From Verrucomicrobiota bacterium (lineage in GTDB: Bacteria; Verrucomicrobiota; Verrucomicrobiia; Limisphaerales; PALSA-1396), in the NCBI GenBank assembly GCA_016200005.1, contig JACQFP010000002.1, positions 1-64,000 of the forward strand: DNA of 64,000 bases. The letters are read 5' to 3'. The notes under the pieces were generated by a model that worked only from the letters and a program-made list of their open reading frames with translations, had not been told where the DNA came from and searched no databases. This document shows, piece after piece, positions 34,253 to 50,503 of this stretch; position 1 is the first letter of the stretch; every line of letters starts with the position of its first letter. A program made the position numbers and the translations under genes.

Positions 34253-34530
34253 ACCGGAATGGTGCAACAAGCGTGGGGAAAAATGAAATCCATTTCTCCG
34301 ACACCGCGAGCCATCGCCCGCCGGTGGTTGGAGTTCACGCTTCAGCGTGGGGTCGCGATCGCGCGAAACAAAATGAATGGGTACCGCGGCAGGATTTCCA
34401 ATTTTTTGGAAGTCGATGACAAGGCGGAAATTTCCCCGCGTGGGCGGCGGACGACCGCGTTGGCGCAGCGTGCCAACGGTCGCGCAGAGTCTTTCGCAGC
34501 GTGCCTTCATCAGTTTATCCTGGTGACTTT

Positions 34531-34546
34531 AGCAGCAGTCTTGCCA
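34531..34546 (-). promoter_or_regulatory. Predicted sigma-54 promoter of the FecR-TPR-barrel gene
   Basis: On the minus strand the sequence TGGCAAGACTGCTGCT has GG and GC separated by exactly ten bases, with TGGCA and TGCT agreeing with the RpoN consensus. The start site would be near 34520, giving a leader of roughly 270 nt to GTG 34252. A palindrome lies 101 bp upstream. Confidence 0.7.
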
Positions 34547-34646
34547 GAGGTTGGCGGGAATGCCGGATACTGAGTTGCCCCTTGATTTCATTGGTTTGTT
34601 TGAACCTATTTCAAAGCTGCATTGAGAGAGAGGATCAAACCTGGTG

Positions 34647-34664
34647 TGTTCCGATTGCGGAACA
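34647..34664. promoter_or_regulatory. Predicted activator site, perfect palindrome
   Basis: TGTTCCG-ATTG-CGGAACA is a perfect 7-4-7 palindrome in the gap between the Ig-like gene and the FecR-barrel gene. The same sequence recurs at 36622, and weaker versions occur at 41094 and 50212-50251, each upstream of a sigma-54-type promoter. Confidence 0.7.
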
Positions 34665-34687
34665 GGAAGAATGGGTTGCGCCAAGAT

Positions 34688-36460
34688 TTACTCGATGCGA
34701 ACGCGGAAAAATCTTGTGCCGTCTCCGGACAGATAAAGCACCAGCGACTGGTCGTTACCAAAGTAAAAGTTGGACCAGGGTTGCCACGGGCCGGTGATCG
34801 TCGCGGCTTCCTCCACATAATAGCGCTGGCCGGACATAGTCGGGAAACTGAGCTCCAGCCAGTTGGAGACGCTCGTCAGTGAACATTGCGTCGGGATGAC
34901 CACGTGCAATGGCAGCGTGGCGGAGAGTGAACCGAGGTCGTTTGTGACGGTCATGACATAGTCGGCCGTGTCGTTGGTGGTCGTACTGGGGAAGAAGATT
35001 CCCGGGGCAGTCACCCCCGGCATCGCGTTCGTGTACTTCTTCCACGTAAAGCATAACGGTGGCGAGCCGGCCAGACTAGCGGCGAGGGTGGCCGGAGAGC
35101 CTTGGGCGACCGTCACAGTGGTTGGTTGCGAGAGCAAGGCCGGCGCAGTCGGTTGTTGATTTGTGTTGAGCGAATAATTCAGCCACGCTGTGCCACGGGC
35201 GTTGTTGACGCCTTCCACCGCAACAATGTACTGGCGCGATTTGACAACCGCGAACTGGACGCGCGACGCGCCGTTCGTGCCCCCGGCGGAGTTGTGGTCG
35301 CACGCAATGGAGATCAAGTCCTGGTAACTGTTGAGCGCGCCGTTGTAAGTGTAGGCCTCCATCACCGTGTCATAGCTGCTGCCGAGGGTATCGAGTGTGA
35401 TGGTGCCGTTGGTGGGCGGCTGGTACAGCAACCAATACGAAACGCCGCCGCTGATCCCGCAATGAGGCGGTTCATTCGTATCCACGGTGCCGTAAGTGGT
35501 GTCGAATATCTGGCTGCCATTGTAGCCGCGCACCACACCCGCGCCCGATGCGCCTGCCGGCGAAATAGTCCCTGCTGGCCGTGAAGCGCCACCGCCGTTC
35601 TCGCCGATCAATGGCGAACTGGGTGAATCCAGTAGTTTGCCACGAGCCAGGGTGTCCGTCGCGCCATCCGTATTGATCTGAAGTTCAACGGGAATGGTGA
35701 AGTAATTTGGACCGTCAATTGACACGCGCATCTTGTAACGCCCCACGTTGGCGATTTGCAGACTGGGAATTAGAAGATTCGTGGTCGTGATGCCCAGGTC
35801 GTTGCCGTTGAAATACCACTTATACTGGCCATTCGCCGCATTGGTCAGGACCACGGTGAGAGAAACCGTGTCTCCCAGGTTAGCGGAGCGGTCGGTCGGC
35901 ATGCTGAGCACGACGGGTGGCGGAAGGTCAACGGCTTCGAAACTCCACTTCAATTCGAGCAGCCCGGTCGCACCAAAATATCCGTCCACGGCAATTTCGT
36001 ACGGGTGACCTGCCAGCACGCCGAATTCGATTTCACTCTCGCGGTCAAATCCCTCGGAATCATCCGCGCGCGCCACTTCGATGAGTTTGTCGAAGGTCGT
36101 GTCGTTCGTGGAATTGAAATAGTAGGCGGAGAGCAAGGTGTCGAAATCGCTTCCCTCCGTTTCAAATTTCACAACGCCGTTCGTCGGGGCCACCCAGGAA
36201 ATCCACATGGAATGGCCACCAACTTTACCGCCGTGTTTCGGCTCGCCGACCTCGACGGTCGCGGTCGAATTATTGCCGGTCAGATCGCCGGTCGCGCTCG
36301 AAAAGGTGACTCGATTCGTGAAATAATCTTGCAACGACTGCGCTTGAGACGGAATGGCCAGGCATAAACCCGCCAGAACAAAACAAACAGCCAGCGCACC
36401 GCGCCTTGGAGGGCAATGGCCGCATTCACCGACGCACGTGCTTTCGACAAACGTCTTCAT
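34688..36460 (-). CDS. Secreted Ig-like domain protein with RFFR-type C terminus
   Basis: This 590-residue exported protein has a signal peptide (GALAVCFVLAGLCLAIPSQAQ). It contains two related beta-sandwich modules (VGGHSMWISWVAPTNGVVKF at about residue 80 and GGVSYWLLYQPPTNGTITLD at about 340). Ig-like domains lie between and after them (NGQYKWYFNGNDLGITTTNL, GSPPLCFTWKKYTNAMPG). The C-terminal module ends YYVEEAATITGPWQPW...GTRFFRVRIE. That ending is shared with the proteins at 47957, 60754 and 62864. A sigma-54-type promoter lies 53 bp before the start. The role is probably cell surface or matrix. Confidence 0.8.
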   Translation of the reverse strand: MKTFVESTCVGECGHCPPRRGALAVCFVLAGLCLAIPSQAQSLQDYFTNRVTFSSATGDLTGNNSTATVEVGEPKHGGKVGGHSMWISWVAPTNGVVKFETEGSDFDTLLSAYYFNSTNDTTFDKLIEVARADDSEGFDRESEIEFGVLAGHPYEIAVDGYFGATGLLELKWSFEAVDLPPPVVLSMPTDRSANLGDTVSLTVVLTNAANGQYKWYFNGNDLGITTTNLLIPSLQIANVGRYKMRVSIDGPNYFTIPVELQINTDGATDTLARGKLLDSPSSPLIGENGGGASRPAGTISPAGASGAGVVRGYNGSQIFDTTYGTVDTNEPPHCGISGGVSYWLLYQPPTNGTITLDTLGSSYDTVMEAYTYNGALNSYQDLISIACDHNSAGGTNGASRVQFAVVKSRQYIVAVEGVNNARGTAWLNYSLNTNQQPTAPALLSQPTTVTVAQGSPATLAASLAGSPPLCFTWKKYTNAMPGVTAPGIFFPSTTTNDTADYVMTVTNDLGSLSATLPLHVVIPTQCSLTSVSNWLELSFPTMSGQRYYVEEAATITGPWQPWSNFYFGNDQSLVLYLSGDGTRFFRVRIE

Positions 36461-36512
36461 TCGGTCGGTTTTACTCTTCTCTATGATGTCTGGTTGTCAA
36501 ATGAGTTCCTTT

Positions 36513-36528
36513 AGCACCCGGATTGCCA
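36513..36528 (-). promoter_or_regulatory. Predicted sigma-54 promoter of the Ig-like protein gene
   Basis: On the minus strand TGGCAATCCGGGTGCT has the exact GG-N10-GC spacing. The predicted start site is near 36501, about 40 nt before ATG 36460. The palindrome at 36622 is 94 bp upstream, a normal distance for an enhancer-binding activator. Confidence 0.72.
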
Positions 36529-36621
36529 ATCGTTCAGGGCGACTCAATTAGACTGAATTGCGCAAAAAACAGCGGGATTTGTGTTGCCAATCCTTTGGTC
36601 ACACCTAATGCAAATCTGCAC

Positions 36622-36639
36622 TGTTCCGCTGGCGGAACA
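36622..36639. promoter_or_regulatory. Predicted activator site, perfect palindrome, behind the activator gene
   Basis: TGTTCCG-CTGG-CGGAACA is a perfect 7-4-7 palindrome lying two bases after the stop codon of the NtrC-type regulator. It is the best candidate for that regulator's own binding sequence. A role as a short terminator hairpin is also possible, but no U-tract follows. Confidence 0.7.
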
Positions 36640-36641
36640 CT

Positions 36642-38048
36642 TCATTCTTTTGCCACCCGCAGTTCCGGCCATTTCTCCAGCCGCCGCAACAATGCCTGCG
36701 GCGACATGCCCAGCTTGGCCGCTGCCCGGCGAATCCCACCGTTGGTCTCACGCAGCGTGTCTTGAATGAGGCGATATTCCTGTGCTTCGACTGGGCTAAG
36801 ATCACGGTCGGGTGGGAGTGGTTCGGTGGAAGGCAGCGGAACGGGCTGCTTCGTCGTGGCCGTCGCGCCGCGATTCAACCAGTTCAGGTCCAGTGCCAGC
36901 CAGCGGCTCTCCTCCAGCGTCATGAGCAACGAGCGTTCGATGACATTGCGCAGCTCTCGCACATTGCCGGGGAAATTGTGCGCGTTGAGCGCGGATAAAT
37001 CCTCCGGCCTCAGCCGCGGTTTGGTGCGGTTGTATTTTTTGGCGAGCTGGGTCACGAACAACTCGGCAATGCCGGAGATGTCCGCGCGATGTTTGCGCAA
37101 GGGCGGCAACGCGACTGTGAACACGTCCAGCCGGTAAAGCAAATCCTCGCGGAAACGGTTGGCCTTCACTTCCTCGGCGAGCGACTTGTTTGTCGCCGCC
37201 ACAAAGCGGCCCGAGAAAGAAAGGCTTTCCGTGCTGCCGAGCGCGCGGTACTCGCCCGACTCCAGCAAGCGGAGCAGCTTGGCCTGCAACGCAAGCGGCA
37301 CCTCCGCAATTTCGTCGAGGAACAACGTACCGCCCGCCGCTGCCCCGACCAGGCCAACGCGTTTCTTGTCCGCACCGGTGAACGCGCCCCGTTCTGCGCC
37401 GAACAATTCCGATTCAAACATCTCCGCCGGCACCGCCGCACAGTTCACCGCGACGAAGGGCGCATTCGCGTTTGGGTAAGTCAATTGATGGAGCACACGC
37501 GCAGCGAGGTCCTTGCCCGTGCCCGTTTCGCCCGTGAACAGAACCGTGCTCGCCGGGTGCTTGGCAGCCTGGTGAAGTTGTTTCAGCACGTCGCGCATCG
37601 CCGGGGAATCACCGAACCACTCCGCTGAATCGGCGGTCGGGGTGCGCGTTTGCAGACGCAGTTTTGCCCGTTGCAGACACGCAGCGAGCGCTTCCACGGT
37701 CACTGGTTTGGTGAGATACTCCGACAGCCCGTTGCGGGTGAGCGCCACTGCTTCACCCAGGTCCGGCATGCCGGTGATCATCACGATGGGTGCCTCCGGA
37801 TAGCGCCGGAAGAGTTGATCAAAGAAATCGTACCCTTTGCCGTCGGGCAGGTGATTATCCAGCAGCACGAGGTCGAAGGATCGGTCAACAATGGCGGCAC
37901 GAGCGGCGGACAACGTTGCCGCCAAGGTCGGCTCGCCGCCCTGCTCCCGGACGACCTGACCCGCCATCGTGGCAAACGCGTTGTCATCTTCCACAATGAG
38001 ACAGGAGAACTTCTCCGCTGGGCTTCCGGCCTTGTTGGATGCTGACAT
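36642..38048 (-). CDS. Sigma-54-dependent response regulator (NtrC/PrsR-like)
   Basis: This 468-residue protein has a receiver domain at 10-130, with phospho-acceptor Asp in LVLLDNHLPDGKG, Thr in VMITGMPD and Lys in YLTKPV. The AAA+ domain follows, with Walker A GETGTGKDLAARVL, the RpoN-contacting loop ERGAFTGADKK and Walker B GGTLFLDEIAEV. A Fis-type helix-turn-helix (GGIRRAAAKLGMSPQALLRR) ends the protein. The complete set makes it a functional RpoN activator. ATG 38048 begins MSASNKAGSP; the longer frame is an artefact. It is preceded by the CHASE2 kinase gene. Confidence 0.95.
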   Translation of the reverse strand: MSASNKAGSPAEKFSCLIVEDDNAFATMAGQVVREQGGEPTLAATLSAARAAIVDRSFDLVLLDNHLPDGKGYDFFDQLFRRYPEAPIVMITGMPDLGEAVALTRNGLSEYLTKPVTVEALAACLQRAKLRLQTRTPTADSAEWFGDSPAMRDVLKQLHQAAKHPASTVLFTGETGTGKDLAARVLHQLTYPNANAPFVAVNCAAVPAEMFESELFGAERGAFTGADKKRVGLVGAAAGGTLFLDEIAEVPLALQAKLLRLLESGEYRALGSTESLSFSGRFVAATNKSLAEEVKANRFREDLLYRLDVFTVALPPLRKHRADISGIAELFVTQLAKKYNRTKPRLRPEDLSALNAHNFPGNVRELRNVIERSLLMTLEESRWLALDLNWLNRGATATTKQPVPLPSTEPLPPDRDLSPVEAQEYRLIQDTLRETNGGIRRAAAKLGMSPQALLRRLEKWPELRVAKE

Positions 38049-38125
38049 GGCACTGCCGAGTCTAGCTCGTCCCCGGATAATTCCAAGCCCGGAAACGCGC
38101 CTGTCAGAGCCGGCCGCGGATGTTC

Positions 38126-40846
38126 CTATCGTTTGCCTCGCAAGCAATTTTGGACCGCGCTCAGAATCTCCTCGAGCGCAAAAGGTTTGTTGACCAATAC
38201 GACGTCGGCGATTTTCTCTGCGTCGGCGCCGTCCTCGCCACTGGCGAGAATCACCGGCAGGTCCGGCCATTTCTCGCGCAGCGCGCGAATCGTCTGGAGC
38301 CCATCCATGACTGGCATGGCGCAATCGGTGATGAGCAGTCGCACATCGCTCGCGTGCTTCTGGAAAAGTCGCACGGCTTCCTCGCCGTTGGACGCGGCAA
38401 GCACGCGGTAGCCGCACGAAGTCAATTCTGCCGTGAGCAGTTCGCAGATTGCCTGCTCATCGTCGGCCACCAGAATCAATTCACCTTGGCCGCGCGCCAG
38501 TCCGACCGTCGGCGCCGCAATCTCCGTGGTCGCGGTTTCCACCGCACGTGGGAGAAGCACTTCAAAGCTTGTGCCTTGGCCCGGTTCACTTTCGACGCGG
38601 AGAAAGCCACCGTGGCTTTTGACGATCCGCATCACGGTGGACAATCCGATACCGGTGCCGCGTCCTTCGCCCTTGGTAGTGAAGAACGGCTCAAACATTT
38701 TTGCGCGTACCTCTGGCGGGATGCCCGTGCCCGTATCGGACACGAGCAGCGAAACGAATTTGCCCGGCTGGCCGTCGGGAATGGCGGCGGCCTCGGCTTC
38801 CGCGAGGTCAACGTTGTCCGCCACGAAGGACAGTTTGCCGCCGGCGGGCATGGCGTCGCGCGCGTTGACACAGAGATTGAGCAGGACCTGATGAAGTTGC
38901 GTCGGGTTGCCGCGCACTGGCCAGAGGTCGCGAGGCAAGAAAGTTTCCACGGTGATGTTTTTCGGAAATGTTTCGCGGACCATCTTCTCCAGTTCCTTCA
39001 CCAGCGCGCCCAATTCGAGCCGCTGAAACTCACCGCCCCGACCGCGCGCGAACAACAACACCTGCCGCACCATATCGGCGCCGCGATGCGTGCTGCTTTC
39101 GATCATGGCGAGCAACCGGCGGGACTCCTCGTCCGCGGCCTGGCGGCGAAGCAATTGCGCACCCATGAGAATTGGTGCAAGCGCATTGTTGAGGTCGTGC
39201 GCCATGCCGCCCGCCAATGTGCCGATGGTGTTCATGCGCTGCGTGCGGAGAAACTGCGCCTCCAAGAGCTTTTGCTCGGTGACATCACTGTTGATGATCA
39301 GCAGCGCCTTGGGCTGACCTGCTTCGTCGCGAATCAGCGTCCACCGGCTGGCGACGGTGACGACCTGACCGCCGCGGGTTTGCTGGCGCAATTCGCCGTT
39401 CCATTCACCGTCCTTCAACGCGGCGGCGCGGGCGGTGCCGGCGGTTTCCGCGTCCGGAGAAAACATTTCATCGCATGCGTCCGCGCGCTGTAGTTCGCCG
39501 AGTTTCCAGCCATAGAGGCGCTCGGCGCTTGGATTGGAGTAGGCAATCCGGCCGTTGAGATCTTGGACGAGAATTGCGTCGTGCGCCTTGTCTATCAGCG
39601 CGGCCTGTTCGCGGATCTTGGCGTCGGCAATTTTTTTGGAGGCCTCGAATCTCTTCCGCGCGCGATACCACTCGACGGAGTAGAACAAGACCGAGCCGCC
39701 AAGCGCGACGGGAATCTGCGCGGTGGAAACGATGAGCCACGGAAACCAGACGCCACGTGAAAAACCGGCCAGTGAAACGCCCAGCGCTACACCCGCGCCA
39801 GCAAGCGCGGCCATCGTCGCCGGAATGGGTCGCAGCCAGACCAGTCCGCCACCGAACAATAGCGCGACAGCGAGCAGAATTATCATTTCCCTGGCACGTG
39901 AGAGTCGCCGCAACCAGTCGCCGCGAATGAGGTTGAGCAATTCCGTGGCGTGGACCTCGACGCCGGGCATGAAAAGCTCCTTGTGTTTCCAGGAATGGAA
40001 AGGATTTCGGAATTCGTCCTGTCGCTCGTTGAATAGCTCGGCCATCGGACGCGCGCCGATGAAGACGATTTTGTCGCGGAAGAAGTTTTCGGGCACACCG
40101 GCCGGGTCAAGTGCTTGGGTGTAGCTGACATTTGGAATTGCCAACGCCGGACCGTAGTAACGAATCCAATGCTCGTTCGCCGCCCGGACCGCATCGCTGA
40201 CGCGCGTCGCGGGAAGTTGAAGCCAGGCGGCGGCCGCCCAGATGAGCGACGGCTGGACTTCTGAAGTGAATCCCGCAAAGAAACGTCGCACCACGTAGTC
40301 GTCATCCACAATGTGCGATGCCACGCCCCAGGCGACGGCGTTGCTGGCAAACTGTTCGGCTGGCGGCAGCACGTTGATCAGGCGCGCCCAAGGTTGATCC
40401 TGACTCGTCACGTGGCTGGAATCATCATTGGATTCACCAGCCAGGATTACACGTCCGCTGTCACGAAGCGCGTTTGCAAACTCGCGATCCGCAGCCGCAT
40501 TTGCGCCGACATCGCTGAAGACAATGTCGAATACCACCGCGCGCGCGCCGGCTGTCGTGAGCCGGCGAAGCAGCTTTGCGTGCAGTTCGCGCGGCCACGG
40601 ATGGCTCGGGTCTTGATGTTCGAGCAGGAACGAACGGAGGTCGAGATAGACGATGACGACGGGCAGATTGTTGGTGGTGGCAAGCTCGACACCGTTCAAC
40701 GAGTGCAGCGAATCGTAGCTGTTGCGCAGCAGGCTCGCGCCCGGTCGCCAGGCCGGATCGAGCAACAGCAACCCCAACAACGCCACCAAGGTCGTCAGCG
40801 CCAATGAAGCGAAAACGCGGGATCGGTTGACAGTTGCACGGCTCAT
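38126..40846 (-). CDS. CHASE2-PAS hybrid histidine kinase with C-terminal receiver
   Basis: This 906-residue sensor has a first membrane helix (VFASLALTTLVALLGLLLLD), then a periplasmic CHASE2 domain to about residue 330 (VVIVYLDLRSFLLEHQDPSH, KIVFIGARP). A cluster of membrane helices follows (EMIILLAVALLFGGGLVWLR). Next are a PAS domain (DAILVQDLNGRIAYSNPSAE), a kinase core with H-box GGMAHDLNNALAPI, N-box LLNLCVNARDAMP and G-box DTGTGIPPEV, and finally a receiver (LILVADDEQAI, LLITDCAMPVMDGLQ). ATG 40846 is favoured. It is 77 bp upstream of the sigma-54 regulator, so the two should form a signalling pair. Confidence 0.93.
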   Translation of the reverse strand: MSRATVNRSRVFASLALTTLVALLGLLLLDPAWRPGASLLRNSYDSLHSLNGVELATTNNLPVVIVYLDLRSFLLEHQDPSHPWPRELHAKLLRRLTTAGARAVVFDIVFSDVGANAAADREFANALRDSGRVILAGESNDDSSHVTSQDQPWARLINVLPPAEQFASNAVAWGVASHIVDDDYVVRRFFAGFTSEVQPSLIWAAAAWLQLPATRVSDAVRAANEHWIRYYGPALAIPNVSYTQALDPAGVPENFFRDKIVFIGARPMAELFNERQDEFRNPFHSWKHKELFMPGVEVHATELLNLIRGDWLRRLSRAREMIILLAVALLFGGGLVWLRPIPATMAALAGAGVALGVSLAGFSRGVWFPWLIVSTAQIPVALGGSVLFYSVEWYRARKRFEASKKIADAKIREQAALIDKAHDAILVQDLNGRIAYSNPSAERLYGWKLGELQRADACDEMFSPDAETAGTARAAALKDGEWNGELRQQTRGGQVVTVASRWTLIRDEAGQPKALLIINSDVTEQKLLEAQFLRTQRMNTIGTLAGGMAHDLNNALAPILMGAQLLRRQAADEESRRLLAMIESSTHRGADMVRQVLLFARGRGGEFQRLELGALVKELEKMVRETFPKNITVETFLPRDLWPVRGNPTQLHQVLLNLCVNARDAMPAGGKLSFVADNVDLAEAEAAAIPDGQPGKFVSLLVSDTGTGIPPEVRAKMFEPFFTTKGEGRGTGIGLSTVMRIVKSHGGFLRVESEPGQGTSFEVLLPRAVETATTEIAAPTVGLARGQGELILVADDEQAICELLTAELTSCGYRVLAASNGEEAVRLFQKHASDVRLLITDCAMPVMDGLQTIRALREKWPDLPVILASGEDGADAEKIADVVLVNKPFALEEILSAVQNCLRGKR

Positions 40847-41073
40847 GCTCAACAACGGATGGTGCGCGAATAATTTCAAGCTGGCGAGTGCGGAGTGGGA
40901 GGAGAAATCCTTCGATCCAGGCAAATCCGCCCATAAGAAGTGTCGGCGCTGTTCTCAACTCTTGCTGCCCACCGCATTCATGCTTACACGCAGCCAGTAA
41001 TTATCCAACGCGGTGTCTGCGAATCTCACTTGGAACCGTGGTGAAGCGGTCGCACTGAAACCACGCCCTGGCA
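40847..41073. other. Upstream region of the CHASE2 kinase
   Basis: This part of a 557-bp divergent gap has no gene. A weak sigma-54-like match on the minus strand at 40980-40996 (TGGCTGCGTGTAAGCA) has the right spacing but a poor -12 element. The kinase promoter is therefore not assigned. Confidence 0.4.
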
Positions 41074-41111
41074 TGTTCCGGGTTTGGCCGTTCTGTTCCG
41101 GAAACGGATCG
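41074..41111. promoter_or_regulatory. Predicted activator sites upstream of the glycan operon
   Basis: Two TGTTCCG half-sites start at 41074 and 41094, exactly 20 bp apart, so they lie on the same DNA face. The second continues as GAAA-CGGATCG, an imperfect version of the 7-4-7 palindrome. They end 62 bp before the sigma-54-type promoter at 41174. Confidence 0.55.
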
Positions 41112-41173
41112 AAGCCACTCCTTTTGTCGTCCAACCTCCCGTCTTTCACAGGCAACACGTAATCCCTTCGCGC

Positions 41174-41190
41174 TGGCACGGTCGTTGCTA
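41174..41190 (+). promoter_or_regulatory. Predicted sigma-54 promoter of the glycan operon
   Basis: TGGCACGGTCGTTGCTA matches the RpoN consensus at essentially every conserved position, with GG-N10-GC. The predicted start is near 41200, leaving a leader of about 200 nt before ATG 41404. It is the best match in the window. Confidence 0.8.
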
Positions 41191-41403
41191 AAACCCTGCT
41201 TGTGCAATCAAAGATACAGTGCAAAGATTATGAGCATTGGAGCTTCCTCCTTCTGCCATGCGACGAACTCGCCGGTGTATTGTTGCGGATTGCCACGGCA
41301 TCGGATGAAGTCTCGACGCGACAAGGCGGCAGGAGAGCATCAGTCCATCTGAGGCAGGCACTGGCCGGCTGGTCGTTGAACAAACCGAAGGAAAGGATTT
41401 GAG

Positions 41404-42618: not shown

Positions 42619-42659
42619 AATCTCGCCATGAATCGGCGCGTCTGTTAACCTCCTCTCAA

Positions 42660-44504
42660 ATGTCACAGCCGCTTCCGCTCCCTCAACGTCTGCCGGGCCT
42701 GTGGCGGATTCTGAAATATTTCTGGCCGCACGCGCGGCAATATCGGCTCCTGATCGCGGGTTCGCTCGTGGCGCTCTTCGCTGAGGTCGCGCTGCGGTTG
42801 CTGGAACCCTGGCCGATCAAATTTGTCTTCGACCACATCATCGGCTCGAAGCGTTCGACGAAAACGGCGATGCCAGAATTTCTGGCGTCGCTCGATTCGA
42901 TGTCGCTGCTCACCGTGGCGGCGATCGCGGTGGTCGTCTTCACGGCGCTGCGGTCGCTCGCCGCGTATTGGGAGACCATCGGCTTCACGCTCATCGGCAA
43001 CCGCGCGCTCGCCAAGGTCCGGTCCCAACTCTACCGCCACGTCCAATATCTCTCGCTTTCGTTCCACACCCGCGCGCGCACCGGCGACCTCGTCGTGCGC
43101 ATGATGGGCGACGTGGGAATGTTGCAGGATGTGGCGGTGACGGCGTTCCTGCCGCTCATCGCCAAGGCGCTCATCGTTGCGGGCATGATCGGCCTGATGT
43201 TCTACATGAACTGGCAGCTCGCGCTTATCGCGGCGGCGGTGCTGCCGCTGTTCTGGTTGCGCAGCGTTTCGCTCGGCAAAAAAATCCGTGAAGTCGCCAA
43301 GAAACAACGCAAGCAGGAAGGCGCGATGGCCGCAAACTTCACCGAATCCATCAGCGCCATCAAAACCGTCCAAGCCCTTTCGCTCGAAGAAAGTTTTTCA
43401 CGCGCCTTCACCGAGGTGAGCGAGAAGAATCTCAAGCAGGACGTGAAAGGCAAGCGCCTCTCTGCCGCACTGGAACGCTCGCTCGACGTGCTCATCGCGG
43501 TCGCCACTGCGTTCGTGCTATGGTTTGGCGCGCGGCTCGCGCTCGCCGGTGAAATCAGCGCGGGCGATCTTTACCTCTTCATCGCGTATCTCAAGTCCGC
43601 GTATCGTCCCGTGCAGGACTTCGCGAAATACACCGGTCGCCTCGGCAAAGCCTCCGCCGCCGGCGAACGCGTGATTGATTTGCTCGAGCGTGTCCCCGAC
43701 GTGCGCGACCTGCCCGGCGCGGTCCGCGCGCCGTCCTTCGAAGGTCGTGTGCAATTTGACAACGTCGCTTTCGCATACGAACACAGCCAGCCATTGCTCG
43801 AAGGCATTCAACTGGAAGTGGAATCCGGCCAACATATCGCGCTCGTCGGGCCGTCCGGCGGCGGCAAATCCACATTGCTCAGTCTCTTGCTGCGCCTTTA
43901 CGATCCGGTGAGCGGGCGCGTGCTGATTGACGGCCGCGACATTCGTGAGTTCACGCTCGAATCCCTCCGCGCGCAAATCAGCGTGGTGCTTCAGGACAAC
44001 GTGTTGTTCGCTGCCAGCGTGCGCGACAACATCGCCTGCGCCGCGCCCGGCGCCACGCTCGAGCAGGTCCACGCCGCCGCCCGGCTTGCCAACGCCCACG
44101 ACTTCATCAGCGCGTTGCCGCAGGGTTACGATACCATTCTCGGTGAGCGCGGGGTCACCCTCTCTCATGGCCAGCGCCAGCGAATCGCCATCGCCCGCGC
44201 CGCAATCCGCCAGGCGCCGATTCTGATTCTCGACGAGCCGACGACCGGCCTCGATCGCAAGAACGAGCGCGAAGTGATGGAAGCCTTGGAGCGACTCTAC
44301 GCCGCGCGCACGACTTTTCTGATTACGCATGATCTGCAACAAGCGGCTGGCGTGGATGTGATTCTTTACCTCGAGGGCGGCCGGATCATCGAACGTGGCA
44401 CGCACGATGAATTGATGCAGCGGAACGGACGCTATGCCGCGTTGTTCCGTTCGCAGGCGAGGATGAACGACACGCAGCGGGAGCGGATTGCTTGTCTGTC
44501 ATGA
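42660..44504 (+). CDS. MsbA-type ABC exporter, fused permease-ATPase
   Basis: This 614-residue half-transporter has membrane helices to about residue 320 (YRLLIAGSLVALFAEVALRL, FYMNWQLALIAAAVLPLFWL). The ATPase domain has Walker A GPSGGGKSTLLSLLLRL, signature LSHGQRQRIAIARA (His for the first Gly of LSGGQ) and Walker B ILILDEPTTGLD. It should export a lipid-linked or glycan substrate made by the neighbouring glycosyltransferases. Its stop overlaps the next start as ATGA. Confidence 0.93.
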   Translation: MSQPLPLPQRLPGLWRILKYFWPHARQYRLLIAGSLVALFAEVALRLLEPWPIKFVFDHIIGSKRSTKTAMPEFLASLDSMSLLTVAAIAVVVFTALRSLAAYWETIGFTLIGNRALAKVRSQLYRHVQYLSLSFHTRARTGDLVVRMMGDVGMLQDVAVTAFLPLIAKALIVAGMIGLMFYMNWQLALIAAAVLPLFWLRSVSLGKKIREVAKKQRKQEGAMAANFTESISAIKTVQALSLEESFSRAFTEVSEKNLKQDVKGKRLSAALERSLDVLIAVATAFVLWFGARLALAGEISAGDLYLFIAYLKSAYRPVQDFAKYTGRLGKASAAGERVIDLLERVPDVRDLPGAVRAPSFEGRVQFDNVAFAYEHSQPLLEGIQLEVESGQHIALVGPSGGGKSTLLSLLLRLYDPVSGRVLIDGRDIREFTLESLRAQISVVLQDNVLFAASVRDNIACAAPGATLEQVHAAARLANAHDFISALPQGYDTILGERGVTLSHGQRQRIAIARAAIRQAPILILDEPTTGLDRKNEREVMEALERLYAARTTFLITHDLQQAAGVDVILYLEGGRIIERGTHDELMQRNGRYAALFRSQARMNDTQRERIACLS

Positions 44505-45832
44505 AGATCCTCTACCTTTGTCCGGACCTCGGCATTCCCGTGCTGGGCCGCAAGGGCGCGTCGGTGCATGTGCGCGAACTCTGCGGCGCGTTCCACCGTG
44601 CGGGCCATCGCGTCGTTCTCGCCGCCCAGATGCTCAATAAATCGCCGTGGGAAAAGCCGGCGGTACTCGACGTGCCGATCGTGCAGGTGCGGCCGTCGCC
44701 GGGCGCCGGCGGCGCCGTGCTGGCGTTCAAGGAATTCAATGAATTGCTCGGCGTGGACAATTCGTTGCCCGGCGAGCTGCGCCGGATTCTCTACAACAAG
44801 GAACTTGAAGGTGAATTGCTGCGTCGGTTTGAGAACGACCCGCCGGATTTCATTTACGAACGCGCCTCGCTCTACGCCACCGCGGGGGTGTCGCTCGCCC
44901 GCACGCTCGACGTTCCGCTCATTCTTGAACTCAACGCGCCTCTCGCCGTGGAGCAGGCGGCGTATCGCGCCACTGGCTTCGGTGAACTTGCGGCGCAAGC
45001 CGAACGCTGGACGCTTTCACATGCCGACGCCGTGGTTGTCGTATCGTCTGAACTTGCGAAGCATGCCAGGTCGCTCGGCGTGAAGCCGGGCAAGCTGCAC
45101 GTGATACCCAACGGCGTGAACCCGGAATTGTTTTATCCGGCGGGAGCGGAGCGCGGCCTTCAGGCCGCTTCAGATACTACCATCCGCAAAAAGTCAGAGT
45201 TGGCTGACACTTCACAGGGCGTGAATCGAAGCGGGCTGAAGCCCGCGCTCCGGGGCGCGGGACACGGTTCACCCGTCCTCGGTTTCGTCGGTGGATTGCG
45301 GCCGTGGCACGGCGTGGAGATTCTACCGGATTTGCTGGCAAGATTGAAGAAGCGGCATCCAGGCGTGCGTCTGGTCATCGCGGGCGACGGTCAGTTGCGC
45401 AGCGCCTTGGAGCGGGAGTTCGCCCGGCGCGGTCTGCGAGGGAACGTGACCATCACGGGCCTGCTCCCGCACGAGGCGGTGCCAGAGGTCATCCGGCAGT
45501 TCGACGTGGCGCTCGCGCCGTATCCCGCGCACAAGCACGACTTTTATTTTTCGCCGCTGAAGCTGTTTGAATACATGGCGTGCGGCGTGCCAGTGGTGGC
45601 GGCCAAGCTGGGTCAAATTGCGGAAGTGGTGCGCCACGGCACAACCGGCCTGCTGTATCCGCCGGGCAACCTGGCGGCGCTCACGACGAATTGCGAGCGG
45701 TTGCTGAACGACGCCAAGCTCCGGGCAAAACTCGGCAGCGCCGCAGCGAAACTCGTGCTTGGCCGGTTTACATGGGAGAAAAATGCCGGACGCGTCGTCG
45801 CCCTGGCGCGCAAGCTGGCCGCCGTTCACTGA
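44501..45832 (+). CDS. Family 4 glycosyltransferase carrying a 34-codon repeat insertion
   Basis: This 443-residue GT-B enzyme has an N-terminal acceptor domain (PVLGRKGASVHVRELCGAFH), the linker LHVIPNGVNPELFYP, and a donor domain (LGFVGGLRPWHGVEILPDLL, FSPLKLFEYMACGVPVVAAK with the E-x7-E region). ATG 44501 overlaps the ABC gene stop. Between the linker and the donor domain lie 34 residues encoded by a repeat with inverted ends (45149-45250). The insertion keeps the frame and falls in a surface linker, so the enzyme may still work. Confidence 0.92.
   Translation: MKILYLCPDLGIPVLGRKGASVHVRELCGAFHRAGHRVVLAAQMLNKSPWEKPAVLDVPIVQVRPSPGAGGAVLAFKEFNELLGVDNSLPGELRRILYNKELEGELLRRFENDPPDFIYERASLYATAGVSLARTLDVPLILELNAPLAVEQAAYRATGFGELAAQAERWTLSHADAVVVVSSELAKHARSLGVKPGKLHVIPNGVNPELFYPAGAERGLQAASDTTIRKKSELADTSQGVNRSGLKPALRGAGHGSPVLGFVGGLRPWHGVEILPDLLARLKKRHPGVRLVIAGDGQLRSALEREFARRGLRGNVTITGLLPHEAVPEVIRQFDVALAPYPAHKHDFYFSPLKLFEYMACGVPVVAAKLGQIAEVVRHGTTGLLYPPGNLAALTTNCERLLNDAKLRAKLGSAAAKLVLGRFTWEKNAGRVVALARKLAAVH
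45149..45250. repeat. 102-bp element with inverted ends inside a glycosyltransferase gene
   Basis: The ends GAGCGCGGCCTTCAGGCCGC and GCGGGCTGAAGCCCGCGCTC are near-perfect inverted repeats and are themselves hairpins. The element length is exactly 34 codons and it has no stop in the gene's frame. It looks like a MITE/REP-type unit normally found between genes. Confidence 0.8.
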
Positions 45833-45850
45833 AATTAACGCTGCCCGTCC

Positions 45851-46933
45851 ATGACACTGCAACGCATCGCCTACGTCCTGAAAATTTTTCCGAAGCTCTC
45901 GGAGACGTTCATCACGGGCGAGTTGGCGGAGTTATGTCGGCGGGGTGTCGAGTTGCGGATTCTTTCCCTGCTGCCGCCGCGCGAGGAGTTACAGCATGAA
46001 CTCGTTCATCGTGCGGGCTTGACCGAACTCACCACCTACGACCTGCAGAAGTTTGCCCCGGTGCTGCACGAATTTCGCCCGCAACTGATGCACGCCCATT
46101 TCGCCACGGAGGCCGCGGACAAGGCGCGCGCGCTGTCCGCAGAGTGCGGCGTGCCGTTCACGTTTACGGCGCACGGCTATGATATTCATCGCAAACCGCC
46201 GGCGGATTTTCACGAGCGGGCGCTGGCGGCGCAGGCGGTGGTGACGGTGTCGCATGCGAACGCGGATTACATTTCAACAACCTTCAATGTCCCCGCCGGG
46301 CACCTCCGCGTGATTCCTTGCGGCGTGGATACGGAAACGTTCCGACCGGCGAAGACTCCGGTGGACGGTGGCGCTCCGCCGTGGATCGTTTGTGTGGCGC
46401 GGCATGTGAGGGTGAAAAACATCAGCTTGCTGCTCGAGGCCTGCGCGGAGTTGCGACGTCGCGGTCTCAATTTTCGTTGCGCGTTGATTGGCGGCGGGCC
46501 GCTCTACGAAGAATTGAAGGCCAAGCGCGCCGACCTTGGGTTGGAAGAGATTGTCGAAATGCCCGGCGCCGCGGAGCAACGTGAGGTTTTGAGATGGTGG
46601 CAGCGGGCCGCGGTGGGCGTGCTCACGAGCGAGAACGAAGGCATGCCGGTGAGTTTGATGGAAGCGGCATCGTGCGGCGTGCCGGTGGTGGCGCCGGCGG
46701 TTGGCGGAATTCCCGAACTCGTGCTCGATGGAGAGACGGGCCTGCTGACGAAGCCGAACGATTTGGAAAATCTGGTTGCGACACTGGAACGAGTGTTGCG
46801 CGACGAGCAATTGCGGACGCGGCTCGGCTCGGCGGCGCGGGCGCGGGCGGAGAAAAAGTTTTCCGTTAAGCATCAGGTGGATCAATTGCTCGCGCTGTGG
46901 TCGGAAATCCTGAATGGAGGAAATCGCGCGTGA
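45851..46933 (+). CDS. Family 4 glycosyltransferase (WcaL-like)
   Basis: This 360-residue protein begins RIAYVLKIFPKLSETFITGE, typical of colanic-acid WcaL-type enzymes, and has HLRVIPCGVDTETFRP and ENEGMPVSLMEAASCGVPVV with the E-x7-E donor-binding pattern. It should add a hexose to a lipid-linked or growing glycan. Its stop overlaps the next start as GTGA. Confidence 0.93.
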   Translation: MTLQRIAYVLKIFPKLSETFITGELAELCRRGVELRILSLLPPREELQHELVHRAGLTELTTYDLQKFAPVLHEFRPQLMHAHFATEAADKARALSAECGVPFTFTAHGYDIHRKPPADFHERALAAQAVVTVSHANADYISTTFNVPAGHLRVIPCGVDTETFRPAKTPVDGGAPPWIVCVARHVRVKNISLLLEACAELRRRGLNFRCALIGGGPLYEELKAKRADLGLEEIVEMPGAAEQREVLRWWQRAAVGVLTSENEGMPVSLMEAASCGVPVVAPAVGGIPELVLDGETGLLTKPNDLENLVATLERVLRDEQLRTRLGSAARARAEKKFSVKHQVDQLLALWSEILNGGNRA

Positions 46934-47943
46934 ATATTGCCGTGAGCGATCCATTCAACGCGGCGGCGGACGCGGCGCTGCCCACGGTCGCGATAGCGCT
47001 TGATCCAGCGCGGGCGAAGAGCGAGTTCAAACGGCGACTCCCCAAGTTGTCCGGCGATGGCAGGCTGCGGCTGAAGGCCATCCGGGTCACGCGCCACAAG
47101 CCGGGCAAGCGCTGCGTCATTGAATACGATGTCGAAGTGGACCGACCCGACCTGCCGAAGCACGCGCTCACGCTGATCGGCAAAATCCGCGCGGGACGTT
47201 CCGGCAACGAAGGGTTTCGCCAGCTCGAAACGATCTGGAACTCGGGTTTCGACGCCCAAAGCGCGGACGGCGTGTCCGTGCCGGAACCCGTCGGCGTGAT
47301 TGCGGAATTCAAGATGTGGTGCCAGCGCAAAGTGCCGGGTGAGACAGCGACGCGGCTTTTGGCGGGACCGGACGGCGTGACGTTGGCCCGGCGCGTGGCG
47401 GATGCGATTCACAAGCTGCATCGCGCCAGCCTCCCTGCAGAACGCGCCCACTCCATGGCCGATGAGCTGCGCATTTTGCGGGGATGTCTTGAGAAAGTCT
47501 CGGCGCAGCGGCCCGAGCTGGCGGCCCGGGTTGCGCGCGTTAGGGCGGCATGTGAAGAATTGGGCGCGAGTGTGCCGGCGCCGAACCCTTGCGGGATTCA
47601 TCGCGATTTTTATCCGGCGCAGGTGATCGTGGACGGCGCGCGGCTGTGGCTGATTGATTTTGATTTGTTCTGCCTCGGTGATCCGGGTCTGGACGTGGGA
47701 AATTTTCTGGGTCATGTGACGGAGCAGTCGTTGCGGGAGCGCGGCCGGGCCGATGCGTTGGCAAACGTGGAAAATGCGTTGGAGGAACGGTTCGTGGAGT
47801 TGTCCGGCGAAACCGTCCGTGCAGCGGTCCAAGCGTACAAGACGCTGACATTGGCACGACACATCTATTTGAGCACGCAGTTCCCGGAGCGGCGACATCT
47901 CACTGAAGATCTCGTTAAACTATGCGAAGAGCGTTTGGGGTAG
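46930..47943 (+). CDS. APH-fold phosphotransferase in the glycan operon
   Basis: This 337-residue protein starts at GTG 46930, overlapping the previous stop. The catalytic loop is GIHRDFYPAQVIVDG and the metal site is LIDFDLFCLGDPGLDVGNFL, both of the aminoglycoside/choline-kinase-like family. The N-terminal ATP lobe is present (IRVTRHKPGKRCVIEYDVEV). Position in a glycan operon suggests phosphorylation of a sugar or head group rather than an antibiotic. It ends 13 bp from the convergent beta-repeat gene. Confidence 0.85.
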   Translation: MNIAVSDPFNAAADAALPTVAIALDPARAKSEFKRRLPKLSGDGRLRLKAIRVTRHKPGKRCVIEYDVEVDRPDLPKHALTLIGKIRAGRSGNEGFRQLETIWNSGFDAQSADGVSVPEPVGVIAEFKMWCQRKVPGETATRLLAGPDGVTLARRVADAIHKLHRASLPAERAHSMADELRILRGCLEKVSAQRPELAARVARVRAACEELGASVPAPNPCGIHRDFYPAQVIVDGARLWLIDFDLFCLGDPGLDVGNFLGHVTEQSLRERGRADALANVENALEERFVELSGETVRAAVQAYKTLTLARHIYLSTQFPERRHLTEDLVKLCEERLG

Positions 47944-47956
47944 TGACTCCGTCGAG

Positions 47957-49972
47957 TTACTGCAGGTGAATCCGGTAAAAGCGGGTGGCGTTGGTGGCCG
48001 TGTTGTCCTGCTTGTTCGTCACGCTGCCGTCGCCAATGATGCCGGGCAGAATGGCGGTCCAAGTCGGATCACTCAACGTTTGTTTGAATTCAAGGACATG
48101 GTTGCCACCGCTCACCGTGGCGAACGAAATTGTGGCGGTGTTGCCCGACTTAGTGATTGATGTGATGACGGGTGCCGCGGCGGCACAGTTCGTGTTCAAC
48201 GTGCCGCTGTTCGAGATGGTGCCGACAATGGTGCCGCAACCGGTCACGCTGGCGTTGGAGGCGATGACGAGTCCGTCCGCAAAACTGTAAGTCCCGCCCT
48301 GAAGTTGAAGCGTGGCCGGGTTGACGCCGTCGCCGACGACAAATGGCGATCCGTTGGCCGCCATCAGGCTGCGCAGCGTGAGGGTGCCGCGCGGGAAACT
48401 GAATTGTCCGTTGCTGTTGGTCAGCAACAGCGCATCCGCAGTGACGCTGCCCTGATCCACTGTGAAAGTTCCACTGGCGACGTTGATGATGCCGTTGCTG
48501 AACGGGTTGGCCACGGTCACGGCGCCGCCGAACACACTGACCTGGCCCGTCGAAACCAGGCTTGTTCCCACCACCAGATTGGAGGAGAGGATCGTGTCGC
48601 CGCCGGTGATGGTGACGGCACCTTGCGGCGCATTGGTTCCGTCCTCGGACATGCCGACAAAGAGGCTCCGCGCGCGCACCGTGCCGCCGGACACGGTCAG
48701 GTCACCGATGCCCTCGCGGCCCACCCAGATGTTATCATTCGTCAGCGAAAGTAATCCGCCGGTCACCACAACGTGCCCGATGGCATTGGTGAAACGACCA
48801 ATGGAAAGGTCATCAATGCAATACACCGACGCGTTTGGTTGGACAGTTAATGTGCCGGTGGCGTCGGTGTGACGGCCCACGGAAGCGTTCGTGAAATAGG
48901 CCATGGCGTTGGTGATCGTAAACGTGCCGATGCCATATCGGCCTATGGCGACGAGGTCGTTGGTGGCAATCAATTGCCCGCCGGTCATGAGCACGTCGCC
49001 AATGGCTGGTGCATTGTCAGCGATATCAAATCCGCCTCGCAACCAGACGAGGCCGCCGCTGATGTTGAATTTCGCGGTGCCGTAGTTGCCAATGCGGGTG
49101 ACGTCGGTCAAGGCGCCTGGAGTCACGGTGAGTTGGCCGCCGGAAATGTTCACGACACCAAACCCGCCAAAATTGTCGCCGATTGACAAAAAGGAAAACG
49201 CCGACGTCCCGCCGGATTGATTCAGGATGCCGCTGCCAAAATTGCCAACTTTGGTGAGGTCGTTGGTGGCAATGAACTGGCCGGATACGATTGAGACGGT
49301 GCCAGTTGAGTTAACGGCGTCGCCAAGGGTTGTGAGGAATGGCGAGAGGACAGTGCCGGCGTTGAGCGTGTAGATGCCCTGCGCACTGCCGACGGCAGCA
49401 ACACTTAGACCGAAGGTGTTCACGGTGCCGCCGTTTTGGGTGAAGGTGCCGATAGCGCCACTGGCGCGGCCAACACGGATGTTAATGAAATTTGGTGTGG
49501 TGTCGATTAACCCGCTCTCCATTTGCACACTGCCGCCCAGCACATCGAAGGTATCCCCAACGGACAATGTTGAATTGGTGACGAGTAAGAGGCCGTTGCG
49601 GTCCACGAGCAGAGGTTTCGAAGTGGAGAGCGGCGTGCCTGAAGGTACGCCGGTGACGAGCAGGATATTGGTGGAGCCGGCTGGCGCAGAAACCAGGAGA
49701 CTGCGCACCGACAGATTGGCTGCAGGGGTCGCCGAATCCACGGTGACGGTCTTGATGCCTCCGGCGGCGGCGTTCGTGATCAGGATGAAATCGAAACTGG
49801 TGCTCGGTGGTTGAGCGGCGGACCAGTTGGTCGCCGCGCTCCAGAGACCGCTGATCGAGTTGGTCCAGGAGTTTGTCCCCGCGGCAAAACCGTCCAAACT
49901 CGAAACGAGAAGGAGGGCATGAAGGACGCCGGTAAGTTTCAAAAGATTAAAACGATACTTTCTCATAAGCAT
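47957..49972 (-). CDS. Secreted beta-strand-repeat protein with RFYR C terminus
   Basis: This protein of about 671 residues has the N terminus MLMRKYRFNLLKLTGVLHAL and a signal peptide ending GFAAG. The body is many 35-45 residue units with TxSGG and VGRxG turns (GSVQMESGLIDTTPNFINIR, VGREGIGDLTVSGGTVRARS), resembling autotransporter-associated beta-strand repeats and suggesting a beta-helix. The C-terminal module ends ATNATRFYRIHLQ. No autotransporter barrel or PEP-CTERM signal is seen. A sigma-54-type promoter lies about 107 bp upstream, facing away from the prepilin-like gene. Confidence 0.82.
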   Translation of the reverse strand: MLMRKYRFNLLKLTGVLHALLLVSSLDGFAAGTNSWTNSISGLWSAATNWSAAQPPSTSFDFILITNAAAGGIKTVTVDSATPAANLSVRSLLVSAPAGSTNILLVTGVPSGTPLSTSKPLLVDRNGLLLVTNSTLSVGDTFDVLGGSVQMESGLIDTTPNFINIRVGRASGAIGTFTQNGGTVNTFGLSVAAVGSAQGIYTLNAGTVLSPFLTTLGDAVNSTGTVSIVSGQFIATNDLTKVGNFGSGILNQSGGTSAFSFLSIGDNFGGFGVVNISGGQLTVTPGALTDVTRIGNYGTAKFNISGGLVWLRGGFDIADNAPAIGDVLMTGGQLIATNDLVAIGRYGIGTFTITNAMAYFTNASVGRHTDATGTLTVQPNASVYCIDDLSIGRFTNAIGHVVVTGGLLSLTNDNIWVGREGIGDLTVSGGTVRARSLFVGMSEDGTNAPQGAVTITGGDTILSSNLVVGTSLVSTGQVSVFGGAVTVANPFSNGIINVASGTFTVDQGSVTADALLLTNSNGQFSFPRGTLTLRSLMAANGSPFVVGDGVNPATLQLQGGTYSFADGLVIASNASVTGCGTIVGTISNSGTLNTNCAAAAPVITSITKSGNTATISFATVSGGNHVLEFKQTLSDPTWTAILPGIIGDGSVTNKQDNTATNATRFYRIHLQ

Positions 49973-50078
49973 TGCTAGATTGACATCGCGATTTAAACAT
50001 ACAGCCCAAGCTCCCACGCGGGACAGCCACGGTCGAAACCCGGCGCAAGGTGCATATTTTTCATTTCGGAAACCTTTT

Positions 50079-50094
50079 AGCAACCGCCTTGCCA
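50079..50094 (-). promoter_or_regulatory. Predicted sigma-54 promoter of the beta-repeat gene
   Basis: On the minus strand TGGCAAGGCGGTTGCT shows GG-N10-GC with both conserved elements (TGGCA and TTGCT). The predicted start near 50068 gives a leader of about 96 nt. The candidate activator sites at 50212-50251 lie 118 bp upstream. Confidence 0.75.
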
Positions 50095-50211
50095 AAACGT
50101 GGCCACGATACTTCCTGAACGAGCGCGCATTGCCCCCCTTGAGTTTGCAAGGGTGGAGCGTGAACCAGTTCGTCCCACTGCTTGTGCGCGGATTGATAGC
50201 TCAGAGTATTT

Positions 50212-50251
50212 TGTTCCACTTGCGGAATCCGATTGTTCCGGAATCGGTCCG
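50212..50251. promoter_or_regulatory. Two imperfect activator sites between divergent sigma-54 promoters
   Basis: TGTTCCA-CTTG-CGGAATC (50212-50229) and TGTTCCG-GAAT-CGGTCCG (50234-50251) are imperfect copies of the 7-4-7 palindrome, 22 bp apart. They lie 118 bp from the leftward promoter and 128 bp from the rightward one. Confidence 0.6.
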
Positions 50252-50378
50252 GCACTGATCGGAATAAGGTATCATGGAGGGTGGCTAAAGGAGTCCGGCC
50301 AATTTGATTATCAAGCAAGCAGGCTTTAGCGTGTGGCGCGAGTTGGCAAGTGGCGGCGACGCGTTGCAAGAAGTTCGT

Positions 50379-50394
50379 TGGCACGTCGGCTGCG
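50379..50394 (+). promoter_or_regulatory. Predicted sigma-54 promoter of the prepilin-like gene
   Basis: TGGCACGTCGGCTGCG has GG-N10-GC and the full TGGCAC -24 element; the -12 element is CTGC. The predicted start is near 50406, about 100 nt before the preferred ATG at 50504. Confidence 0.65.
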
Positions 50395-50503
50395 TGATGG
50401 TTGACTGGTTATGATGACCGGTTCATTTCAACAGCGCGCATGCACCAGTACACGAAGTGTGCGGAATGGAACTTTTTCTGGTGATGGCACCGGAAGATTC
50501 TCA

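Follow-up and report, generated by a model that had tools for sequence, protein, structure and literature searches.

A predicted sigma-54-dependent two-component regulon for surface proteins, with a conserved operator palindrome, in a Verrucomicrobiota genome

The first 64,000 bases of contig C2 (bases 1-64000, hereafter the window) of a Verrucomicrobiota genome of 6.54 Mb in 87 contigs very probably carry a dedicated two-component, sigma-54-dependent regulon for surface proteins and, in this genome, for a glycan operon. This reading is carried by a palindrome, TGTTCCG-N4-CGGAACA, that stands upstream of sigma-54 promoters beside a CHASE2 sensor kinase and an NtrC-type response regulator, recurs with its promoter in related genomes, favors one face of the DNA and changes together with the recognition helix of the regulator. 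In the mechanism that we propose, the kinase would sense a periplasmic or envelope signal and phosphorylate the adjoining regulator, as suggested by domain content and adjacency. A regulator dimer would then bind the palindrome through its Fis-type helix-turn-helix (HTH), a step proposed because helix and operator co-vary, and its AAA+ domain would, judging from the anatomy of the sites, activate RpoN polymerase at TGGCAN7TGCTAAA from mostly ~50-120 bp upstream and preferentially from one helix face. The predicted targets are an Ig-like surface protein, an outer-membrane protein of FecR-TPR-barrel type and the divergent glycan operon; a repeat protein and a prepilin-like protein are less certain ones.

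Results

The genes for the kinase, the regulator, the Ig-like protein and the FecR-TPR-barrel protein follow one another in this order on the minus strand, and the glycan operon is divergent from this cassette on the plus strand. The genes, operators and predicted promoters are:

38126..40924, minus strand: hybrid sensor kinase CHASE2-PAS-HisKA-HATPase-REC (Pfam), probable start ATG 40837
36642..38054, minus strand: NtrC-type response regulator with REC, sigma-54 AAA+ domain with GAFTGA and Fis-type HTH with an SPQ helix (Pfam)
36622..36639, minus strand: operator TGTTCCGCCAGCGGAACA, perfect palindrome, its inner CGGAA ending 95 bp before TGGCA
36510..36528, minus strand: sigma-54 promoter TGGCAATCCGGGTGCTAAA of the Ig-like gene
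34688..36460, minus strand: secreted multi-Ig/beta-sandwich protein (Pfam Ig_3 and I-set; predicted local distance difference test, pLDDT, of the model 84)
34647..34664, minus strand: operator TGTTCCGCAATCGGAACA, perfect palindrome, spacing 102 bp
34528..34546, minus strand: sigma-54 promoter TGGCAAGACTGCTGCTAAA of the FecR-TPR-barrel gene
30734..34510, minus strand: protein with FecR domain, TPR solenoid and ~22-strand TonB-receptor-like barrel (Pfam, model and fold matches)
41094..41111, plus strand: imperfect operator TGTTCCGGAAACGGATCG with 2 mismatches, pair score 38.9, spacing 64 bp to the 41174 promoter
41174..41192, plus strand: sigma-54 promoter TGGCACGGTCGTTGCTAAA of the glycan operon
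41404..47943, plus strand: glycan operon with a GT28-like transferase, an ABC transporter, two GT4 transferases and an APH-like kinase (Pfam), presumably co-transcribed, as gene order and spacing suggest

The kinase matched CHASE2 (5e-37), PAS, HisKA, HATPase_c and Response_reg in Pfam. An earlier note on this DNA had described the activator as intact, and both GAFTGA and the receiver aspartate (in LVLLDNHLPDG) are indeed present; the listed open reading frame begins too far upstream, and ATG 38054 is, as judged by eye, its likely start. Its recognition helix is GMSPQALLRRLEKWPEL, the HTH reading ...LGMSPQALLRRLEKWPEL in this genome, and its relatives of solved structure are sigma-54 activators of the NtrC kind. 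The parts expected of sigma-54 control are all in place, namely GG-N10-GC promoters, an AAA+ activator with GAFTGA and one rpoN gene in the genome (C20), the presence of which the earlier note had left to be checked.

The five GG-N10-GC sites and the palindromes that had been reported before were recovered at the same places. The former lie at 34531(-), 36513(-), 41174(+), 50079(-) and 50379(+), the fifth being weaker than the other four (TGGCACGTCGGCTGCGTG), and the latter are exact at 34647 and 36622, with 2 mismatches at 41094 and 3 at 50212 and 50234; the distances from the 18-mer to TGG are 100, 93, 62, 117/139 and 127/149 bp. Four of the five promoters (34528-34546, 36510-36528, 41174-41192 and 50076-50094) share the longer core TGGCAN7TGCTAAA, which occurs exactly eight times in the 6.54 Mb genome, four of them in the window; the copies elsewhere precede a P-II gene (L021), a secretin gene (L020), a DUF3570 gene (L022) and an unmatched gene (L023). 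The P-II gene is a classical sigma-54 target, and the core upstream of it (G000:C45:30248-30266) can serve as the genome's own positive control for the sigma-54 consensus. When one mismatch is allowed, the core shows no enrichment genome-wide (29 places vs 40 in a reversed control).

Random scatter of the palindrome, which had been named as a result that would speak against the regulon, is not seen for exact copies of TGTTCCG-N4-CGGAACA, since the genome holds two and both are in the window, and is seen for copies with up to 3 mismatches, which are about as frequent as chance predicts, with 5 in the window (4.5 expected) and 422 in the genome (414 in the reversed control). Weak palindromic sites therefore call for caution. 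A single copy with 1 mismatch (C56, locus L003) is without a nearby promoter match and lies, as judged by eye, within a coding stretch. With a position weight matrix (PWM) built from 29 operator-promoter pairs, including the two strongest pairs of the window, the five window pairs scored 53.4, 52.4, 38.9, 38.7 and 25.8, all above the highest score, 23.0, that any pair reached in 20 simulated windows of 64 kb.

Support comes from related genomes (293 genomes of the order). The cassette of CHASE2 kinase, NtrC-type regulator, Ig-like protein and FecR-TPR-barrel protein recurs in the order (probably Limisphaerales, Verrucomicrobiota), all four parts being together in 14 of the 40 loci that were fetched from the better kinase hits, many of which are on contigs that end early. 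A gapped exact search of the 293 genomes with a composite pattern (TTCCGN4CGGAA, a gap of 60-121 bp, TGGCAN7TGCT) returned 33 places (15+18), compared with 2 (1+1) for the reversed control, and the bases flanking the queried operator core agreed with the palindrome, with G before it in 29/33 and C after it in 30/33. The motif and phasing counts exclude four composites (L117, L133, L144 and L148), all of them without the flanking G; within 500 bp of three of them no open frame of at least 120 codons begins, and the only such frame at the fourth starts 486 bp downstream. All 29 composites that were kept have the unqueried G before and C after the core, and 21 of them have A after TGCT, the consensus of the 29 operator sites being (T)GTTCCG-N4-CGGAAC(A/G).

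According to BLAST, the genes downstream of the 29 kept composites encode Ig-like proteins (15), FecR-barrel proteins (6) or neither (8), the last including small secreted-looking proteins and a Calx-beta protein; no Pfam family was found for six of eight other targets in the relatives. The enrichment before secreted genes that the earlier note had anticipated is thus present in the relatives. Of the 19 genomes with a kept composite, 17 have a regulator ortholog; at E<=1e-90, none of the 3 genomes whose sole composite was dropped has one. A PWM scan of the relative loci added weaker operator-promoter pairs, one of which (L096) stands between the kinase gene and a GT28-like gene, the same position as that of the 41094/41174 pair of the glycan operon in the window.

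With a helical repeat of 10.5 bp, the spacing between operator and promoter favors one face of the DNA, both in the 29 sites (R=0.54, p=1.9e-4) and in 15 further sites found later (R=0.59, p=0.0057; 73 of 20,000 jittered sets as high), and the two sets combined gave p=1.1e-6 with none of 20,000 jittered sets as high, these p values being optimistic because related promoters are not independent. The window spacings of 95 bp and 64 bp are within half a base of the favored phase.

Recognition helices at the 40 regulator loci were of the SPQ type in 20 cases, THQ or SHQ (HQ) in 16 and TPQ in one, and three were unreadable (L108, L163 and L259); 12 of the HQ helices were read by script and four by eye (L079, L082, L266 and L269), with which a later script agreed. 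The SPQ loci hold 24 exact copies of GTTCCG-N4-CGGAAC (T-type; in 16/20 loci) and none of GGTCCG-N4-CGGACC (G-type), while the HQ loci hold none of the former and six of the latter (in 5/16 loci), a pairing with a Fisher probability of 1.7e-6, uncorrected for descent. The 24 T-type copies compare with a simulated mean of 0.1 and a maximum of 2 in 30 runs, and an unbiased palindrome count in 15 SPQ loci placed GTTCCG-N4-CGGAAC first among palindromes with 6-base arms (20 copies, 13/15 loci). In these sequences, SPQ-type helices go with TGTTCCG-N4-CGGAACA and T/SHQ-type helices with TGGTCCG-N4-CGGACCA. Both regulators are present in one genome, G136, each near its own operator type (L115 and L082), and the TPQ regulator adjoins a hybrid site, TGTTCCG-N4-CGGACCG.

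A sigma-54-like site lies at a distance of 53-121 bp from several of the G-type operators. A G-type operator precedes the promoter of a FecR-barrel gene by 64 bp in G037, and a similar operator and promoter lie near a contig end in G080, where the downstream gene is out of view because the contig ends nearby; no clear G-type operator was found at the Ig gene of L080/L290, which have an SHQ regulator. The order-wide search for G-type composites left out the 91-121 bp range. In five of the six places that it returned the operator has the unqueried ending CGGACCA, and this extension and some of the downstream genes make the composites usable; those of L232 and L234 have no plausible target gene. 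In a regulator tree built without the HTH, 19 SPQ rows and one unread row form one clade (98/93), and the twentieth SPQ regulator, JAJOIW (L184), which is accompanied by tandem sites of the TGTTCCG type and, before its Ig gene, by a sigma-54-like site, stands outside it on a long branch of unsure placement. The co-variation of helix and operator ties the regulator to the palindrome more directly than the earlier note, which had offered this link as an inference, was able to do, and together with the conservation of the composites it strongly supports the view that this activator reads this palindrome.

That support does not extend to the proposed targets at 50.4 kb, where the pairs are weak and conservation was not found for them. 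Beyond the glycan operon, a repeat protein on the minus strand is followed by a prepilin-like protein on the plus strand:

50212-50229 and 50234-50251: two weak operator-like sites between the divergent promoters 50094(-) and 50379(+)
50076..50094, minus strand: sigma-54 promoter TGGCAAGGCGGTTGCTAAA of the repeat-protein gene
47957..50095 as listed open reading frame, minus strand: secreted T5SS/PEP-CTERM-type repeat protein (NCBIfam TIGR04393, 25.2 bits vs a cut-off of 23)
50379..50394, plus strand: weaker sigma-54-like site TGGCACGTCGGCTGCG before the prepilin-like gene
50411..51355, plus strand: prepilin-like protein (NCBIfam TIGR02532, 24.5 bits vs a cut-off of 16.3)

The two operator-like sites score 11.5 each with the operator PWM, ranks four and five in the window, and the repeat protein probably starts near 49970 rather than at the listed start.

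The model of the FecR-TPR-barrel protein (pLDDT 79; predicted template modeling score, pTM, 0.79) shows a beta-rich FecR part, a TPR solenoid and ~22 barrel strands as counted by eye, in agreement with the 22-strand barrel of TonB-dependent receptors, which the barrel matches in fold at Z 18-21; PF00593 is above its cut-off. No plug was found among the Pfam matches (E<=0.001), and many fold alignments begin near residue 525-554, before the barrel. The union of FecR, TPR solenoid and TonB-receptor-like barrel in one protein with no plug identified has homologs in many relatives, and no paper on such a protein was found by title among the open-licence PubMed Central matches listed. The Ig-like protein is modeled as a chain of beta-sandwiches; a fold search with the whole protein gave mostly Ig-repeat proteins and the hook protein GhpA among the matches listed, with low TM scores of 0.13-0.22, and no function can be assigned from them. 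No PEP-CTERM domain model (NCBIfam, E<=0.001) matched the Ig, FecR-barrel, repeat or prepilin proteins. Elsewhere in the genome, one exosortase-family gene scores above the cut-off and two further matches fall below it (G000:C22:49817-50506, C13:11397-11930 and C13:1357-1815).

Other secreted-looking proteins are found behind operator-promoter pairs in the relatives. Small ones sharing the motif GATDPIPGTSKSG occur in L124, L142 and L163, with no Pfam family for the two that were scanned (L124 and L142), and another of ~430-480 amino acids stands within the cassette in L101, L105, L108 and L109. Homologs of the sensor part of the kinase (E<=1e-10) are present in 125 of the 293 genomes, many of them being shorter CHASE2 proteins rather than this kinase. 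The named records of the closest kinase homologs are metagenome-assembled genomes, mostly labelled Verrucomicrobia (including Limisphaerales, Pedosphaera and 'subdivision 3'); three closer records are labelled Akkermansia muciniphila and some only 'bacterium'. From these labels, Limisphaerales is the probable order of the genome.

Discussion

Several observations weigh against the proposed regulon or narrow it. Searches of this genome for the palindrome, exact or relaxed, for the sigma-54 core and for the composite pattern brought up no convincing composite beyond the cluster, the scan for promoters near palindromes having covered only the ~3-kb loci that these searches returned; the sole extra composite (C50:86225, L148) was rejected, as the flanking G is absent and no gene starts close downstream. 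Hence the genome-wide enrichment before secreted genes that had been expected is not found here, and the regulon appears to be local and narrower than the earlier note had hoped. The perfect pair at 34.5 kb (102 bp) is 3.9 bp off the favored phase. The sites at 50.2 kb are 3 mismatches off the palindrome with spacings (119, 129, 141 and 151 bp) 2-4 bp off phase, and no operator-promoter counterpart was found near the ortholog of the repeat protein (L096) or of the prepilin-like protein (L099). Among the relatives, L100, L260 and L263 have an SPQ regulator, but the DNA fetched around it holds no operator at up to one mismatch, while their genomes (G175, G227 and G108) hold composites elsewhere. 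Conversely, T-type composites in G021 (97% complete) and G204 (78%) and a G-type composite in G166 are present where no close regulator ortholog was found. The G-type operator is the less well attested, with 6 order-wide composite places vs 3 in the control and an unbiased count in 6 HQ loci that gave it 2 copies, tied with others. Finally, the SPQ regulators fall essentially into a single clade, apart from one outlier on a long branch, and independent switches of helix and operator are therefore few, perhaps two or three, and in the same direction.

The explanation that competes best, although we regard it as unlikely, is that the promoters are truly sigma-54-dependent and the palindrome is bound by another regulator, an NtrC paralog or a repressor, rather than by the adjoining one. 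Candidates are many, with 40-163 loose first-look NtrC-type hits per genome for the full-length query, and the composites of G021 and G204 would fit such a regulator. Against it, the operator changes with the recognition helix of this very regulator, also within the single genome G136, the operator clusters beside the regulator gene, whose ortholog is present in most of the composite-bearing genomes, and the phasing of the sites suits an activator.

Less probable still is that the regulon belongs, in diverged form, to the Prs (PEP-CTERM-box) system, in which, as described by Haft 2006 (PMC1569441), PrsK, PrsR and PrsT are associated with an activator box that precedes the sigma-54 box of PEP-CTERM genes by ~63 bp. 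The RpoN dependence of one such gene, pepA, has been shown in Aquincola (PMC9850573). The logic is the same, with a kinase, a two-component NtrC-type activator and a TPR partner, a box some tens of bp ahead of GG-N10-GC, targets that are exported and glycosyltransferases nearby (PMC1569441), and this genome has an exosortase above the cut-off. Nevertheless, all three NCBIfam models fall below their cut-offs (PrsR TIGR02915, 266.4 vs 502.6 bits; PrsK TIGR02916, 78.1 vs 300; PrsT TIGR02917, 46.3 vs 312.2), the kinase has a CHASE2 domain, the TPR part is fused to FecR and a beta-barrel, and the scanned targets are without a PEP-CTERM match. The operator (T)GTTCCG-N4-CGGAAC(A/G) also differs from the 17-nt Prs motif ending TTTACA, as far as the wording of Haft's text allows the comparison. 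The host belongs to Verrucomicrobiota, whereas among the PEP-CTERM-bearing species that Haft 2006 discusses the Prs system is confined to Proteobacteria, and Table 1 of that paper lists no Prs genes for Verrucomicrobium (PMC1569441). The regulon is predicted to work like the proteobacterial PrsK/PrsR system and, by these models, is not a member of it.

Chance matches to sigma-54 and palindromic patterns in a GC-rich genome, noticed for their nearness to an NtrC gene, would agree with the chance-level counts of loose palindromes and of the core at one mismatch, and are hardly credible given the confinement of exact palindromes to the window, the 33 vs 2 composites, the 24 vs 0.1 simulated copies, the agreement of unqueried flanks and the helical phasing of further sites; chance is rejected for the two perfect pairs (34.6 and 36.6 kb) and may still account for the sites at 50.2 kb.

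The dedicated regulon, as the preferred reading, provides a testable operator and promoter with a conserved surface module around them. To our knowledge, gene regulation in Verrucomicrobiota is little studied; no description of this regulon was found in open-licence PubMed Central full text among the matches listed, and the operator letters gave no relevant paper by title in PubMed Central among those listed. The helix-operator switch, both versions of which are found in one genome, bears on the insulation of paralogous enhancer-binding proteins. A tentative extension, which we hold to be possible rather than probable, is that the FecR-TPR-barrel protein may be both the main target and the source of the signal, its periplasmic FecR domain being read by CHASE2, so that the cell would gauge how far its own outer-membrane machine is assembled or occupied and adjust it through sigma-54, and that one step in the helix (P vs H) may set one base per half-site (TGTTCCG vs TGGTCCG) and insulate paralogs in one cell. 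The feedback part draws on the recurring gene neighborhood and on the precedent of the BiofilmReg operon considered below, and it would give CHASE2 a candidate partner in the FecR domain of the predicted outer-membrane protein.

Such a circuit would resemble the FecI/FecR/FecA loop, except that it would run through a two-component system and that FecR would be part of the receptor. In FecI/FecR/FecA surface signalling, a FecR domain and a TonB-receptor-like barrel act in one pathway; here, in contrast, FecR and barrel are in one protein, no plug was identified, and the predicted control is by sigma-54 and a two-component system. The BiofilmReg operon of Burkholderiales, which has been linked to biofilms, places a CHASE2-PAS kinase beside a periplasmic FecR-domain protein (PMC5192318), and Pfam likewise finds a CHASE2-PAS kinase with a FecR-domain partner gene in the window. 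The words sigma, palindrom, TonB and Verrucomicrobi are absent from the main text of that paper, which calls the ligands of CHASE2 unknown. The regulator is of the NtrC type here and of the OmpR type (CreB-like) there, and the FecR protein, LysM-FecR in BiofilmReg, has no LysM match in the window. More generally, sigma-54 has been argued to be a frequent regulator of the cell exterior (Francke 2011, PMC3162934).

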